Positions 33,200 to 37,980 of a stretch of DNA of 64,000 nt are shown here, piece by piece (the stretch's first letter is position 1; each line of letters begins with the position of its first letter). Source of the stretch: Lactobacillus laiwuensis (GTDB lineage: Bacteria > Bacillota > Bacilli > Lactobacillales > Lactobacillaceae); NCBI RefSeq assembly GCF_019972835.1, contig NZ_BPPB01000006.1, positions 124,001 to 188,000 on the forward strand, in the 5' to 3' direction. A program made the position numbers and the translations under genes. The notes below the pieces were generated by a model, which was not told where the DNA came from, did not search any database, and saw only the letters and a program-made list of their open reading frames with translations.

Positions 33200-33252
33200 A
33201 AAGTGGCGTATTTTGACATATATTATCGTAAAGTGACATATTTTGCTAAAAT
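33200..33252 (+). promoter_or_regulatory. Two direct repeats 30 bp apart at the AraC-regulator promoter
   Basis: AAAGTGGCGTATTTTG (33200-33215) and AAAGTGACATATTTTG (33230-33245) match at 14 of 16 positions and start exactly 30 bp apart, near three helical turns. TTGACA (33213-33218) overlaps the first copy; ACATAT or TAAAAT (33247-33252) could be a -10. Direct repeats on one face of DNA are typical AraC-family sites, so autoregulation is likely. Confidence 0.62.
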
Positions 33253-33291
33253 GAAAGGGTATACAATTAAAATTGAATGGAGGAAACTGCT

Positions 33292-34284
33292 GTGAATCTA
33301 AAAATAACAGTTGAGCTGAAAGATTTTTTGCAAGAGCTAGGATATCCATTTGATTCTATTTCTGGGTTACTTGATTCCAGCGTTATGGACAAATATCTCA
33401 ATGCCAAGTGGATTAAGAATTCGCATGTATTTCAAGTGCTTGATAGAAAAGCAAGCGATGAACAGTTGCTAGCTTGCAGTGATGTCCGAAATTTTTACCA
33501 GTTTGTTCCTCCATATTTTGCTGCATTATCAAGTAAAAACGGAATACAAGCAATTTCTCGGTTAGCAACTTACCAGCAGCTTATAGGACCAATCGAAATG
33601 GGAAGATTTAAAGAAGGTGAAAATTTAAGAATTCATATTAGATATTTAGATCAATATCGTAAATACTCACGATTTAGTTTACTGGTTGATCAAATTTCTC
33701 TGGTTAGTCTGATTAGAGCAGGAACAAATAAAACTATTATCCCTGTGTCTATTGGTAGCAAATACAAATATGGATCAAAAATTAATAGTTATTTAGGCAT
33801 TAAAGGTCAAAATAGTTTAGACAATTATTTGGTGTTTAGAAAGTGTGATTTAGAACAACCATTTATAACTAAGAACGATGTAATGTGGAACTTTATTGAA
33901 CCCGGTTTAAAAAAGTACATTAAAAAATTAAATATTAATCCTCCAATTTCAGCCGTTGTACAAAACACTCTTTTTCAGCTGATTGCTGGGGGTAATTTTC
34001 AGCTAAAAGATGTAGCAAATGAGCTAAGTATTTCTTCACGGACATTACAAAGATGGCTGCAAAATGAGGGTACTACATTTAAAAAGCAACTCAGTATTGT
34101 ACAAAAAATTTTGGCACAGAACCTACTTCAAGATAAAAATTTAAATACTGCTGAAGTAAGTTTTTTAGTCGGTTTTAATAGTGTTGCTTCATTTTATAAG
34201 GCTTTTAAAAAATGGTCTGGATTAACGGTCAGAGAGTACAGACTACAAAAAATTCTACAATCTAATAGTATTAATGCAATTTAA
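33292..34284 (+). CDS. AraC-family transcriptional regulator
   Basis: A 330-residue regulator. The C-terminal AraC domain (about 235-330) has two HTH units: LKDVANELSISSRTLQRWL, then the AEVSFLVGFNSVASFYKAFKKW region with the family GF.....F...FK pattern and final SGLTVREYR. The N-terminal 200 residues resemble the AraC_binding type found in OruR/GadX-like proteins, with no sugar-cupin motif visible. A GTG at 33292 is chosen because GGAGG lies eight bases upstream; an ATG at 33277 overlaps it. The flavoprotein gene starts 16 bases after its stop, so it probably controls that pair. Confidence 0.88.
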   Translation: MNLKITVELKDFLQELGYPFDSISGLLDSSVMDKYLNAKWIKNSHVFQVLDRKASDEQLLACSDVRNFYQFVPPYFAALSSKNGIQAISRLATYQQLIGPIEMGRFKEGENLRIHIRYLDQYRKYSRFSLLVDQISLVSLIRAGTNKTIIPVSIGSKYKYGSKINSYLGIKGQNSLDNYLVFRKCDLEQPFITKNDVMWNFIEPGLKKYIKKLNINPPISAVVQNTLFQLIAGGNFQLKDVANELSISSRTLQRWLQNEGTTFKKQLSIVQKILAQNLLQDKNLNTAEVSFLVGFNSVASFYKAFKKWSGLTVREYRLQKILQSNSINAI

Positions 34285-34300
34285 TTTAGGAGAAAACAAA

Positions 34301-36106
34301 ATGTTTTTAAAAGATAATGAGTCTTGGAATGTGACTTATGACGTTGTGGTAATCGGTTTTGGCGGAGCAGGTGCTACAGCAGCGCGTTTTGCTGCAGATA
34401 AAGGAGCAAATGTCCTTTTAGTAGATAGTGCGCCAGAAGGACATGAAGGTGGTAATACCCGATACTGTGGTCAGATTGTTGAAGCAGGTTATGATTATGA
34501 CAAGCTCAAAAAGTATTATCAAAAAATGACTGCTCCACTTGATTTAGATGAGCAGGTGCTTGAAACTTTTGTAAAAGGGATGGTCAATTTACCAGATTAC
34601 TTTGAAAAGTATCTCGGTGGTAAAGCATTTAGCGTTAAAAATAATCCAGGTAACAAAAATGTTGCTATGTTGGCATACATGAGTGCTGAATATCCCGAAT
34701 TTGAAGGTGCAGATACAAATGACGACTTGTTAGTACATGATCAAATATTCGATGCCGCTCTTTGGAAGAAATTGCGCCAGAATGTTTTAGACCGCAGCGA
34801 CAAGATTGATGTACTTTATTCAACACCGGCAAAGCATTTAATCCAAGATACGGATAAGACAATTATCGGTGTACAGATTGAAAATAAAGGCAAGCTGTTC
34901 AACGTCCAAGCAAAAAATGGTGTAGTTTTAGCGCTAGGTGGATTTGAAAATAACGAACAAATGGTGCAGGACTATTTAGGTGAAACTAATTTACTGCCAT
35001 ATGGGACGCTTTATAACAATGGCGATGGCATCAAAATGGCCATAGAAGTTGGTGCGGATTTATGGCACATGAATAATTATGAACCAGGTGGAACTGTTAA
35101 TTTAGCTGCTCCCAAAGGCCAAAGAGCTCATAACATTATGGCTTGGAAAGCATTATTTGGCGGTTCACTGATCACAGTTGGCGATGATGGGACGCGTTAT
35201 GTAGCAGAAGACGATCCAACCCGTCATGGACATCGTTATAATCATGGTATTTGGAGAATTCCTTTAGCTCAAGTACATCCTCATATGATTTTTGATCAGA
35301 AGAAATACGATGAACTATTCTCAGCTGAGAATGATGAATTTCAAAAGGAAGCTTTAAGCAAAGTGGTTAAGTCAGAAACTATCGCTGACTTAGCTCAAGA
35401 AATAAAAGTTGATCCGGCAGTTTTAGAAAATACTTTGAACACGTATAATTTCTTCGTTGATCGTGGAGTTGATTACCAATGTGGCCGTAAGCCAGAGTCA
35501 ATGACCAAAATTGCACTTACAGGTCCGTTCTATTCTTTAGCTCAGCAACATACTATGTTAAACACTCAAGGTGGACCACGCCGAAATAAAAATGCTGAAG
35601 TATTAGATACAGATCAGAAAGTTTTGCCACACTTATATGCTGCTGGTGAACTGGGTCATATAGGTGCAAATCAATATAATGGCGGGGGTGACATGGCTGA
35701 CTGCTTAATATTTGGTAAGATAGCTGGAGAAAATGCCGCTAAAATTAAAGATGAGCAAGTTGTTTCAGGTGCCAGTGTTAGTGAAAATAATGCTGATGCT
35801 GCATTTCCTGAATCGGATGTAAAAGAAGAAAGCTATTCAACTGCTGAAAATCAATATATTGGTAAATCTTCAAGTGGTATGGGCAACGAAATTATAGTGC
35901 GAGTAACAGTTGACAGTGATAAGCGTCCAAGCAATATTGAAGTTTTAAAAGAAAGCGAATCACCTGACTATGGTGAAAAAGCAATTAAGAAAATGAAGAC
36001 AGAAATGCTAGCACAGAAAACAGCTAACGTAGATGCCGTTTCTGGAGCTTCTGCATCAAGTCGTGCATTTAAAGAAGCAGTTGAATCTGCGTTGAAGCAG
36101 GCCTAG
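34301..36106 (+). CDS. FAD-dependent reductase with C-terminal FMN-binding domain (fumarate reductase-like)
   Basis: A 601-residue flavoprotein. The FAD_binding_2 fold starts with VVVIGFGGAGATAARFAADK (residues 9-30) and closes with NTQGGPRRNKNAEVLD and LYAAGELGHIGANQYNGGG, the substrate-side region of fumarate reductases. Residues 510-601 are an FMN_bind domain with DAVSGASAS, the Dxx(S/T)GAxx(S/T)-type site to which ApbE attaches FMN. No signal peptide, so cytosolic. TTAGGAGA sets the ATG at 34301. It may reduce an alpha,beta-unsaturated acid (fumarate, urocanate, hydroxycinnamate or other); the substrate cannot be assigned. Confidence 0.86.
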   Translation: MFLKDNESWNVTYDVVVIGFGGAGATAARFAADKGANVLLVDSAPEGHEGGNTRYCGQIVEAGYDYDKLKKYYQKMTAPLDLDEQVLETFVKGMVNLPDYFEKYLGGKAFSVKNNPGNKNVAMLAYMSAEYPEFEGADTNDDLLVHDQIFDAALWKKLRQNVLDRSDKIDVLYSTPAKHLIQDTDKTIIGVQIENKGKLFNVQAKNGVVLALGGFENNEQMVQDYLGETNLLPYGTLYNNGDGIKMAIEVGADLWHMNNYEPGGTVNLAAPKGQRAHNIMAWKALFGGSLITVGDDGTRYVAEDDPTRHGHRYNHGIWRIPLAQVHPHMIFDQKKYDELFSAENDEFQKEALSKVVKSETIADLAQEIKVDPAVLENTLNTYNFFVDRGVDYQCGRKPESMTKIALTGPFYSLAQQHTMLNTQGGPRRNKNAEVLDTDQKVLPHLYAAGELGHIGANQYNGGGDMADCLIFGKIAGENAAKIKDEQVVSGASVSENNADAAFPESDVKEESYSTAENQYIGKSSSGMGNEIIVRVTVDSDKRPSNIEVLKESESPDYGEKAIKKMKTEMLAQKTANVDAVSGASASSRAFKEAVESALKQA

Positions 36107-36127
36107 ATTCTAACGAAAGGATAAAAA

Positions 36128-37924
36128 ATGGCAAATTTAAAAGATGGCATTTATCAAGGACAAGGCTCTGGTAATCGCGGTGAAGTCAAGGTTTCGGTAA
36201 CAGTCAAAGACAATAAAATTACGGATGTAACAATTGATCAACAAGACGAAACTTCTGGTATAAGCACTGCTGCCTTAAAAAAAGCACCGAAGTTAATTGT
36301 TGAGCATCAGTCATATAATATTGATGCAGTCACCGGTGCAACTATTAGTTTTCAAGCTGTCCAAAAAGCAGTCAGAGATGCAGTTTCAAAGGCTGGCGAT
36401 CCCAGTGGTCTTGATCAAAAAGTTGATTTGAGAAATACTGAGAAAAAGTTTAATGGTGAGGACTACCGTAACGTTAATCCAGATAATTTGCAATTTGAAG
36501 ATCAAACTGATGTTTTGGTAATTGGTGCAGGTGCAGCTGGTCTTTCAGCTTCTATTACTGCCAGGCAAAAAGGTGCCTCAGTAATTTGTTTAGAATATAC
36601 TTCAAGTTATATGTTGTCTGATATGACTTTATCAGGTGGTTATTACAACGCTGGTGGGGGCACTAGTTTGCAAAAATCTCAGGGAATAAAAGATACCAAG
36701 GAAAACTGGAATAATTATTTAAAAGCGGTTGGTCAAGGATACGAAGATGCGGGCATGAGAGAAACAATCGTTGAACATGGCGCAGAAGATTATGAATGGC
36801 TGGCTGGTGAAGTTGGTGTCAATTTTCAAGAAGTCCAAGAAATTGGTAATGAAGAAGCAATGAAAGACTATGCGACTCCAGCAGCCAGGTCTCATTTAAC
36901 TGTCGAAAAAAGTGGCTATGGTTTGTCAAAGCCGCTTTACAATAAGGCAAAAGAAGTTGGCACAAAATTTATTTTTAATATTACAGCTGAGAACTTAATT
37001 ACTGACGAGAATAATAATGTAGTTGGTGTACATACTAATAAGGGTAACTACAGAGCTCAAAGTGTTATTATTGCTACAGCAGGCTTTTCTCGTAATAAAG
37101 AGATGCTTAAGAGTTTTGCACCTGATTTTGCTGTTGGAGAATCATATGGTTCAATCAGACAAATGGGTGATGGTATCACCATGGGTGCTGAAATTGGCGC
37201 TAAGTTAAAAGATATGTGGATGCCAATAGCAAACTCAATTGGCACGCAATCCGGCGATAATGTCTGTATCGGTCCTCTGTGTACTGCCTGGACAAAGCCT
37301 TACATTTGGGTAGGCACAGATGCTAAAAGACACTTTAGGGAAGATATGTATTTTGAATATGCCTCTAAGAAAATCGCAAGTCTTGATCAAGGCTACGTTT
37401 GGTTAATTTTTGATGAAGGCATGGCAAATGAAATGCCAGCTGCTTTTTCAGCACCAGCTCCGTCACCACATTTAAAACGTGAGGTAGAAGATGGTTACTT
37501 CAAGAAAGCTGATACGATAAAAGAATTAGCTCAGCAGATTAACCTAAATCCGGAGGTATTAGAGCAAACAATTAAAAAGTGGAATAATGATGTCACTGGG
37601 GGAGAGGACACAGAATTTAATCGTCAAAAAGATTTAACAGCTTTCAAAGCACCATTTTATGCTGCTAAACTGGCTCCATCAACACCAGACATGGCAGGTG
37701 GATTAGCTATTAACACCAAAGCAGAAGTTCTGGACAATTTTGATAAAAAGATAAACAATCTTTATGCTGCAGGAAGTACTACAGGTGGTTGGCGCGGAAT
37801 GACTTATCCCGGATGTGGAATGGGCATTACTAATGCTGTTGTTTTTGGAAGAATAGCTGGAGAAAGTGCTGCAACTAATGTCAAAGTAGAGGCTGATGCA
37901 AGTTCAGCTGCCTCTCACATGTAG
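36128..37924 (+). CDS. FAD-dependent reductase with N-terminal FMN-binding domain (fumarate/urocanate reductase-like)
   Basis: A 598-residue flavoprotein paralogous to the gene before it, but with the domain order reversed. The FMN_bind domain is residues 1-93, with flavin-attachment site DAVTGATIS at 66-74. The FAD_binding_2 domain begins DVLVIGAGAAGLSASITARQ at about 128 and ends with GGLAINTKAEVLD and TGGWRGMTYPGCGMGITNAVVFGRIAGESAA. There is no signal peptide, unlike secreted respiratory relatives. It follows 21 bases after the first reductase and ends at a terminator. Covalent FMN would need an ApbE transferase, not present here. Confidence 0.86.
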   Translation: MANLKDGIYQGQGSGNRGEVKVSVTVKDNKITDVTIDQQDETSGISTAALKKAPKLIVEHQSYNIDAVTGATISFQAVQKAVRDAVSKAGDPSGLDQKVDLRNTEKKFNGEDYRNVNPDNLQFEDQTDVLVIGAGAAGLSASITARQKGASVICLEYTSSYMLSDMTLSGGYYNAGGGTSLQKSQGIKDTKENWNNYLKAVGQGYEDAGMRETIVEHGAEDYEWLAGEVGVNFQEVQEIGNEEAMKDYATPAARSHLTVEKSGYGLSKPLYNKAKEVGTKFIFNITAENLITDENNNVVGVHTNKGNYRAQSVIIATAGFSRNKEMLKSFAPDFAVGESYGSIRQMGDGITMGAEIGAKLKDMWMPIANSIGTQSGDNVCIGPLCTAWTKPYIWVGTDAKRHFREDMYFEYASKKIASLDQGYVWLIFDEGMANEMPAAFSAPAPSPHLKREVEDGYFKKADTIKELAQQINLNPEVLEQTIKKWNNDVTGGEDTEFNRQKDLTAFKAPFYAAKLAPSTPDMAGGLAINTKAEVLDNFDKKINNLYAAGSTTGGWRGMTYPGCGMGITNAVVFGRIAGESAATNVKVEADASSAASHM

Positions 37925-37947: not shown

Positions 37948-37980
37948 AGAACTGGATTCATTTGAACCTAGTTCTTTTTA
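37948..37980 (+). terminator. Terminator of the two-reductase operon
   Basis: AGAACT (37948-37953) pairs with AGTTCT (37970-37975), extended by GG/CC past a bulged A, then TTTTT. Confidence 0.7.

Follow-up and report, generated by a model that had tools for sequence, protein, structure and literature searches.

Two predicted soluble FAD/FMN reductases encoded beside an AraC-family regulator gene in Lactobacillus laiwuensis, and their probable electron supply

The stretch of DNA analysed here (the window) is 64,000 nucleotides of the Lactobacillus laiwuensis genome. In the window, two flavoprotein genes, open reading frames 2 and 3 (ORF2 and ORF3), follow a gene of an AraC-family regulator, and their products carry the FMN domain at opposite ends. 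The locus raises the question of whether the two proteins form one enzyme or two, what they reduce, and from where they obtain their electrons. ORF2 and ORF3 are probably soluble, ApbE-dependent FAD/FMN reductases that are separable from each other and fed by a shared NADH:flavin reductase. The fuller reading, which we consider moderately probable, is an AraC-switched operon for two soluble C=C reductases that belong to different subfamilies, have different substrates and receive NADH electrons via a pair of the FRedA/FRedB type encoded near a single ApbE. The features of the two genes are as follows (aa, amino acids).

34301..36106, + strand: ORF2, 601 aa, FAD_binding_2 followed by a C-terminal FMN_bind domain (Pfam)
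34340..35686, + strand: FAD_binding_2 core of ORF2, aa 14-462 (Pfam)
35756..35776, + strand: QVVSGAS in the linker of ORF2, aa 486-492, a flavinylation-like second motif with D changed to Q
35876..36097, + strand: FMN_bind domain of ORF2, aa 526-599, with DAVSGAS at aa 578-584 (Pfam)
36128..37924, + strand: ORF3, 598 aa, an N-terminal FMN_bind domain followed by FAD_binding_2 (Pfam)
36170..36385, + strand: FMN_bind domain of ORF3, aa 15-86, with DAVTGAT at aa 66-72 (Pfam)
36509..37828, + strand: FAD_binding_2 core of ORF3, aa 128-567 (Pfam)
37895..37915, + strand: C-terminal heptapeptide DASSAAS of ORF3, aa 590-596, a decayed second flavinylation motif

The E-values of the four Pfam domain matches in the two proteins range from 1e-15 to 7e-51, far beyond chance. 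Thus Pfam bears out the first-pass annotation, which had described adjacent flavoproteins with the FMN domain at opposite ends beside an AraC gene. Both FMN_bind domains agree with the ApbE motif D-x-x-[ST]-G-A-[ST], and both attachment sites, DAVSGAS in ORF2 and DAVTGAT in ORF3, are intact, as had been claimed. Covalent FMN is predicted from these motifs on both proteins via ApbE. As also described before, neither a signal peptide nor a CxxCH heme motif is visible by eye in ORF2 or ORF3, and both look cytosolic. According to Pfam, the PF03358 (FMN_red) domain is absent from ORF2 and ORF3. Both proteins score under the curated cut-off of 285.45 for TIGR01813 flavocytochrome c (ORF2 168.6, ORF3 246.5) and under the cut-off of 600 for the vinylphenol reductase VprA model NF053717 (ORF2 123.3, ORF3 149.1). 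Structure prediction gave low-confidence models, with a mean predicted local distance difference test score of 43.5 for ORF3 (7 sequences) and 40.7 for ORF2 (5 sequences).

An apbE gene elsewhere in the genome was looked for, as the first-pass annotation had proposed. Exactly one was found, and no signal peptide is visible by eye in its product. The locus C7:87067-89993 (L026) comprises this apbE, a phosphatase gene and two genes for FMN_red proteins (PF03358) of 182 aa each. Of the 35 same-genus genomes that gave an ApbE match, 21 were inspected around apbE, and both FMN_red genes lie at most two genes from it in 20 of these 21 loci. The spacer between apbE and the pair is one gene (the phosphatase gene in the source genome), or two genes in L210. 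The FRedA/B of L. johnsonii is a heterodimer of two such proteins; it catalyzes NADH-driven FMN reduction with a Km of 20 uM and a kcat of 146 per s, and H2O2 is formed (PMC4500961).

The source genome contains 15 FMN_bind matches, which correspond to 14 full-length FAD+FMN proteins and one 37-aa remnant. The FMN domain is C-terminal in 8 of the 14 proteins (type A) and N-terminal in 6 (type B). Of the 24 FAD_binding_2 matches, 14 are these proteins, 6 are proteins that lack FMN_bind, 3 are other flavoproteins and 1 is a second piece of one protein. The number of FMN_bind matches is 13-22 in the source genome, G015, G017, G019, G032 (a fragmented assembly, 76% complete) and G035, 1-10 in the remaining 31 genomes of the genus, and 0-3 in 23 Lactobacillales genomes of other families. 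The FMN_red pair near apbE is the probable common electron supply of the 14 reductases. The 37-aa remnant, at C12:16800-16901 (L014), is perhaps a decayed reductase gene.

Fused proteins point to the same donor. An order-level search covered 295 genomes, 172 of which gave a match, and the reading covered 29 further loci (L241-L269) taken from the top matches. FMN_red-FMN_bind-FAD fusions of 803-821 aa are encoded in 12 of the 29, and their N-terminal domain is 41-48% identical to the FMN_red proteins of the source genome; Pfam confirmed this domain in both of the two fused proteins tried. Two FMN_red-FAD-FMN_bind proteins, with the layout of ORF2 plus a fused donor, are present in Secundilactobacillus mixtipabuli. 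One FMN_bind-FAD-FMN_red protein is encoded in G557, and an apbE gene adjoins it. Over the three layouts, the fused FMN_red domains are 39-48% identical to the two proteins of the source genome. These three fusion layouts indicate that the donor in Lactobacillus is probably supplied in trans.

In the mechanism proposed here, NADH-derived electrons would flow to the ApbE-attached FMN, then to FAD, and then to the substrate of each reductase. The NADH dehydrogenase would be encoded outside the operon, by the FRedA/FRedB-type pair near the single cytosolic ApbE, and would serve all 14 reductases. ORF2 and ORF3 would act on different electron-poor alkenes, or catalyze successive steps of one degradation. 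The effect would be the reoxidation of NADH together with the detoxification or use of a compound from the diet. Genes, domains, motifs, counts, neighbourhoods and fusions are observations, and from them we infer flavinylation, electron route, co-transcription, substrates and physiological role. If the proposal is true, feeding covalent-flavin reductases is a candidate physiological job for the H2O2-forming NADH:flavin reductase of lactobacilli, and it is suggested how one ApbE could serve 14 such enzymes in a 2-Mb genome.

The distribution of the genes bears on whether ORF2 and ORF3 work as one enzyme. The ORF3 scan of named genomes gave 8 loci, of which 7 are orthologues: five in Lactobacillus (sp. 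W8174, L. huangpiensis, L. kullabergensis, L. kimbladii and sp. ESL0679; 82-97% identity) and two in Secundilactobacillus (S. mixtipabuli and S. paracollinoides; 71-76%). The remaining locus, L106, matches in part (37%). These orthologues most likely place the locus within the honeybee-gut Lactobacillus group, and the orthologue-bearing Lactobacillus species of this group live in bees. ORF3 is found (E <= 1e-100) in 4 of the 37 same-genus genomes, including the source genome, and ORF2 adjoins it in all four. The AraC gene accompanies ORF2 in four other loci compared (AraC identity 57.9-96%), and the neighbourhood check for AraC + FAD-FMN + FMN-FAD triplets found them in other Lactobacillus genomes.

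A single heteromeric reductase like HcrAB, with electrons crossing between the subunits, is consistent with the pair travelling together: gene order and short gaps are kept in 5/5 Lactobacillus ORF3 loci, including L103 (82%), which is at another chromosomal site. However, an ORF2 relative (76%) occurs with an AraC gene (58% identical) and without ORF3 at the rny-tagO site of G035. Conversely, the two Secundilactobacillus genomes with ORF3 contain no ORF2 orthologue, the best ORF2 matches there being 49-58%. In addition, each protein has complete FAD and FMN domains. Since ORF2 and ORF3 each occur alone and share only about 30% identity, an obligate heteromer is improbable. The two permutations are not a special pair but represent two old subfamilies, with 8 and 6 members in the genome and separate positions in the tree. 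The birth of the pair by recent duplication and permutation was rejected on the basis of the low identity and the separate clades.

The two separable reductases are encoded in an operon that behaves as a cassette. Among 22 same-genus rny loci, tagO directly follows rny in 18, an AraC gene in 3 (including the source genome), and another gene in 1 (G010). G010 matches ESL0679 and carries the complete AraC-ORF2-ORF3 set at a site other than rny. In the two Secundilactobacillus loci (L104/L105), genes for a TetR regulator and a zinc alcohol dehydrogenase precede ORF3, and in L105 ORF3 is split over two frames. AraC and ORF2 look like one unit, and ORF3 like an addition with a separate history. The plasmid search gave 23 records, 22 of them from Lactiplantibacillus; the 20 matches listed show 67-68% identity over 21% of the query. 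In L. kullabergensis Biut2 (L101:4174-5640), an in-frame stop truncates ORF2 to 488 residues; the other four Lactobacillus loci have an uninterrupted ORF2.

UrdA contacts the carboxylate through R560, R411 and H520, and of these R411 has been suggested to donate the proton (PMC7921117). According to the sequence alignment, ORF3 has F409, P520 and Y560 at R411, H520 and R560, respectively (F409 in 2/2). ORF2 has R308 at the proton-donor Arg (UrdA R411, Fcc3 R401/402) in 2/3 alignments, Q458 at R560 in 2/3 alignments with a gap in the third, and L420 at H520 (Ifc3 alignment). The carboxylate ligands H520 and R560 are thus kept by neither protein, and neither looks like a standard enoate reductase. 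ORF2 and ORF3 could nevertheless be enoic acid reductases for hydroxycinnamate, fumarate or urocanate, like characterised relatives of lactic acid bacteria. They belong to the same family, hydroxycinnamates are substrates of HcrB, another species requires par1 for this reaction (PMC10295242), and a pollen diet makes such acids plausible. This alternative is doubtful: neither protein conserves the carboxylate-binding His and Arg of UrdA, and ORF3 also lacks the proton-donor Arg. These residues are kept in a 465-aa protein of the source genome encoded beside a fumarase-like gene. Hydroxycinnamate or fumarate as the substrate, which the first-pass annotation had mentioned for known relatives, is therefore weakened by the missing UrdA/Fcc3 ligands. 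Its wording "heteromer or two substrates" keeps its second half: two substrates remain the better explanation, and the heteromer as worded there lacks support.

The 465-aa protein (C1:258484-259881; L066:1985-3382) has FAD_binding_2 and the fumarate-site residues without FMN_bind, and its gene adjoins fumarase-like and malate/lactate-dehydrogenase-like genes (named by eye). It is likely a fumarate reductase, and a better candidate for this than ORF2 or ORF3. For ORF3, 3-ketosteroid dehydrogenases are among the weaker matches, and its Y-P-G-C-G presumably resembles the carbonyl-binding motif of these enzymes. Because of the active-site residues of ORF3 and the alcohol dehydrogenase neighbour in Secundilactobacillus, an enone or enal, rather than an enoic acid, is suggested as its substrate with low confidence. 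The substrates of ORF2 and ORF3 would bear on the processing of plant compounds by bee symbionts. Elsewhere in the genome, within the region C10:14000-27000 (L019), a type A reductase is encoded among sugar-metabolism-like genes (by eye), a possible hint at its substrate.

Several points weigh against two separate reductases fed by a FRedA/FRedB-type pair. The set of 12 fused proteins is not made up of independent cases, since one genus (g4) accounts for 5 of them; both FMN_red-FAD-FMN_bind fusions are from one genome, as is the third layout. G003 (L202) carries apbE without the FMN_red pair (1/21 loci). FRedA/B was published as an H2O2-forming NADH oxidase (PMC4500961) and may have a free-flavin role, and it is likened to the pair of the source genome by kind of protein. 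The active sites were mapped on sequences of low identity by alignment, the proposal of an enone for ORF3 is based on a neighbour in two genomes and on residue loss, and the diet as a source of substrates is deduced from the host only.

A second heptapeptide with the flavinylation motif was found, unexpectedly, in relatives of the two reductases. From the loci, 105 two-domain proteins were collected; 96 have a stop codon, and clustering at 85% identity left 67 representatives, 29 of type B and 38 of type A. The loci were taken from match lists and are non-random, and common descent persists among related proteins under the 85% threshold. In type B, the strict heptapeptide is present within the last 30 residues in 17/29 representatives, against an average of 0.03 in shuffled tails. 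The Rossmann-motif filter missed two type B proteins of the source genome (C1:249765, no tag; C5:94883, DVTTGSS, not strict) and maybe others, so that 17/31 is a fairer count. In type A, the strict motif is present in the linker that joins the FAD core to the FMN domain in 8/38, against 0.02 in shuffled linkers. No strict motif occurs in the FAD cores of type B (11,213 residues) or type A (16,720 residues). In the source genome itself, 2/6 type B and 3/8 type A proteins have a strict second motif; the tail of its C20 protein carries DAVTGAS. One family of 30 orthologues (including L020:7204-9087) is tagged in 20 members; in its 17 distinct tagged tails, D, G, A and S are invariant and every neighbouring position is variable. 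L274, a protein from another genus of the family, is also tagged. The tag is absent from the 6 FMN-less FAD_binding_2 proteins of the source genome and from all 12 FMN_red-fused proteins.

According to the published motif rule, ApbE requires a minimum of seven residues and prefers chain ends; changing Gly to Ala or Ala to Val causes about 50% loss, and the loss of Asp has a minor effect (PMC12052999). We tentatively propose, at somewhat less than even confidence, that the heptapeptide (C-terminal, or in the linker in type A) is a second, domain-free flavinylation site. Its ApbE-loaded mobile FMN would dock into the shared FRedA/B, take the place of the NADH domain that is fused to the reductase in other genera, and let one dehydrogenase serve a dozen substrate-specific reductases. 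A simple tail motif would then act as a cofactor-carrying arm. The tag is decaying in the window, as DASSAAS in ORF3 and QVVSGAS in ORF2; the linker motif of ORF2 is strict neither here nor in four relatives aligned. Support for the plug-in arm therefore comes from relatives, and the case is weakest for ORF2 and ORF3 themselves. The literature searched, which covers few subscription papers, yielded no description of FAD_binding_2 reductases with a flavinylation site at the C-terminus. Bogachev's group reportedly described a heterodimeric NADH:cinnamate reductase with several flavins in Vibrio ruber; a site of this kind in that enzyme, if present, would reduce the novelty.

Of three further claims about the tag, one was not supported and two were rejected. 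The data do not support it as a general trait of the wider family: the strict C-terminal motif occurs in 0/29 phylum homologues from outside the order (L212-L240), among which the match range reaches the FMN_bind part of the model in 15 and most look exported (by eye). Nor is it a universal need of unfused Lactobacillus proteins, being missing in 12/29 type B representatives. In L273, a Secundilactobacillus paracollinoides relative, the tag does not replace FMN_bind, and the domain follows in another frame.

The ORF3 tail is DASSAAS here and in L. huangpiensis, DASSTAS in W8174, DTSSAAS in L. kullabergensis and DTSSAVS in L. kimbladii. Strict tails are present in 3/7 orthologue loci (L103-L105), namely DTTSGAS in ESL0679, DVSTGAS in S. 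paracollinoides, and S. mixtipabuli, whose protein (L104:6001-7836) ends with two strict copies. The decay of the C-terminal tag here and in 4/7 orthologue loci, together with G035 managing without ORF3, would fit ORF3 as a fading passenger, only ORF2 being selected for the AraC-controlled function. This is very improbable. ORF3 is an open frame with 96-97% identity in four sister strains and 82% in ESL0679, its main FMN site is invariant, and the sole in-frame stop among L099-L103 lies in ORF2 of Biut2.

Several known systems resemble the reductases proposed here in part. UrdA and the flavocytochrome c3 fumarate reductase of Shewanella share the FAD_binding_2 core and are the best solved-structure matches of ORF2 and ORF3, whereas ORF2 and ORF3 lack a visible export signal or heme motif, do not conserve the ligands and, in ORF2, have a C-terminal FMN domain. 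HcrAB of Lactiplantibacillus plantarum is likewise an NADH-linked reductase of a lactic acid bacterium in a regulated operon; HcrB has its own NAD(P)H-binding COG0431 domain and the LysR regulator HcrR, whereas ORF2 and ORF3 have neither and are accompanied by AraC (PMC10295242). FRedA/FRedB of L. johnsonii are encoded by two consecutive FMN reductase genes, like the pair near apbE in the source genome. They form an H2O2-forming oxidase regulated by a PAS protein, and apbE is not mentioned in the accessible part of the paper (PMC4500961). In Lactococcus, flavinylated FMN_red proteins carry ApbE-attached FMN on an unstructured C-terminal extension, as supported by alanine mutants (PMC11334425). 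There the FMN reductase is the tagged protein, whereas in the present family the FAD-dependent terminal reductase is tagged, and inspection of the tails of FRed-type proteins showed no tag. The cytosolic fumarate reductases of K. pneumoniae and trypanosomatids are soluble reductases flavinylated by an intracellular ApbE, as proposed here, but their substrate is fumarate, and the trypanosomatid ApbE is fused to the reductase (PMC12052999).

The remaining features belong to the layout and control of the operon.

33203..33267, + strand: putative AraC-controlled promoter block, TGGCGTATTTTGACATA ... AAAGGGTATACAAT, resembling a block in three genomic settings
33292..34284, + strand: AraC-family regulator, with GTG preferred as the start over the likewise open ATG 33277 (HTH_18, 5.2e-15)
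37948..37979, + strand: possible weak terminator, imperfect hairpin and T-run, by eye

The gap between the AraC gene and ORF2 is 16 bases, that between ORF2 and ORF3 is 21 bases, and a purine-rich stretch precedes each start (by eye). From this spacing, 33292-37924 is predicted to be one co-transcribed unit. The AraC start had been placed at ATG 33277; GTG 33292 is more likely, because GGAGG sits within the ATG version. The shared terminator of the first-pass annotation is retained in part: a hairpin-like element is seen by eye at 37948-37979, but it is imperfect and doubtful, and the terminator scan returned nothing there. The nearest NCBIfam model of the AraC regulator is QhpR (9.2e-26; 90.6 bits against a cut-off of 250). 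The promoter-like block 5' of the AraC gene recurs in this clade, in L103 and at the G035 locus L064 (by-eye comparison), and holds a diverged 18-nt direct repeat at 33207/33227. Among the reductases of the loci read, those at L112:939-2879 and L125:913-2952 have two tandem N-terminal FMN_bind-like domains.

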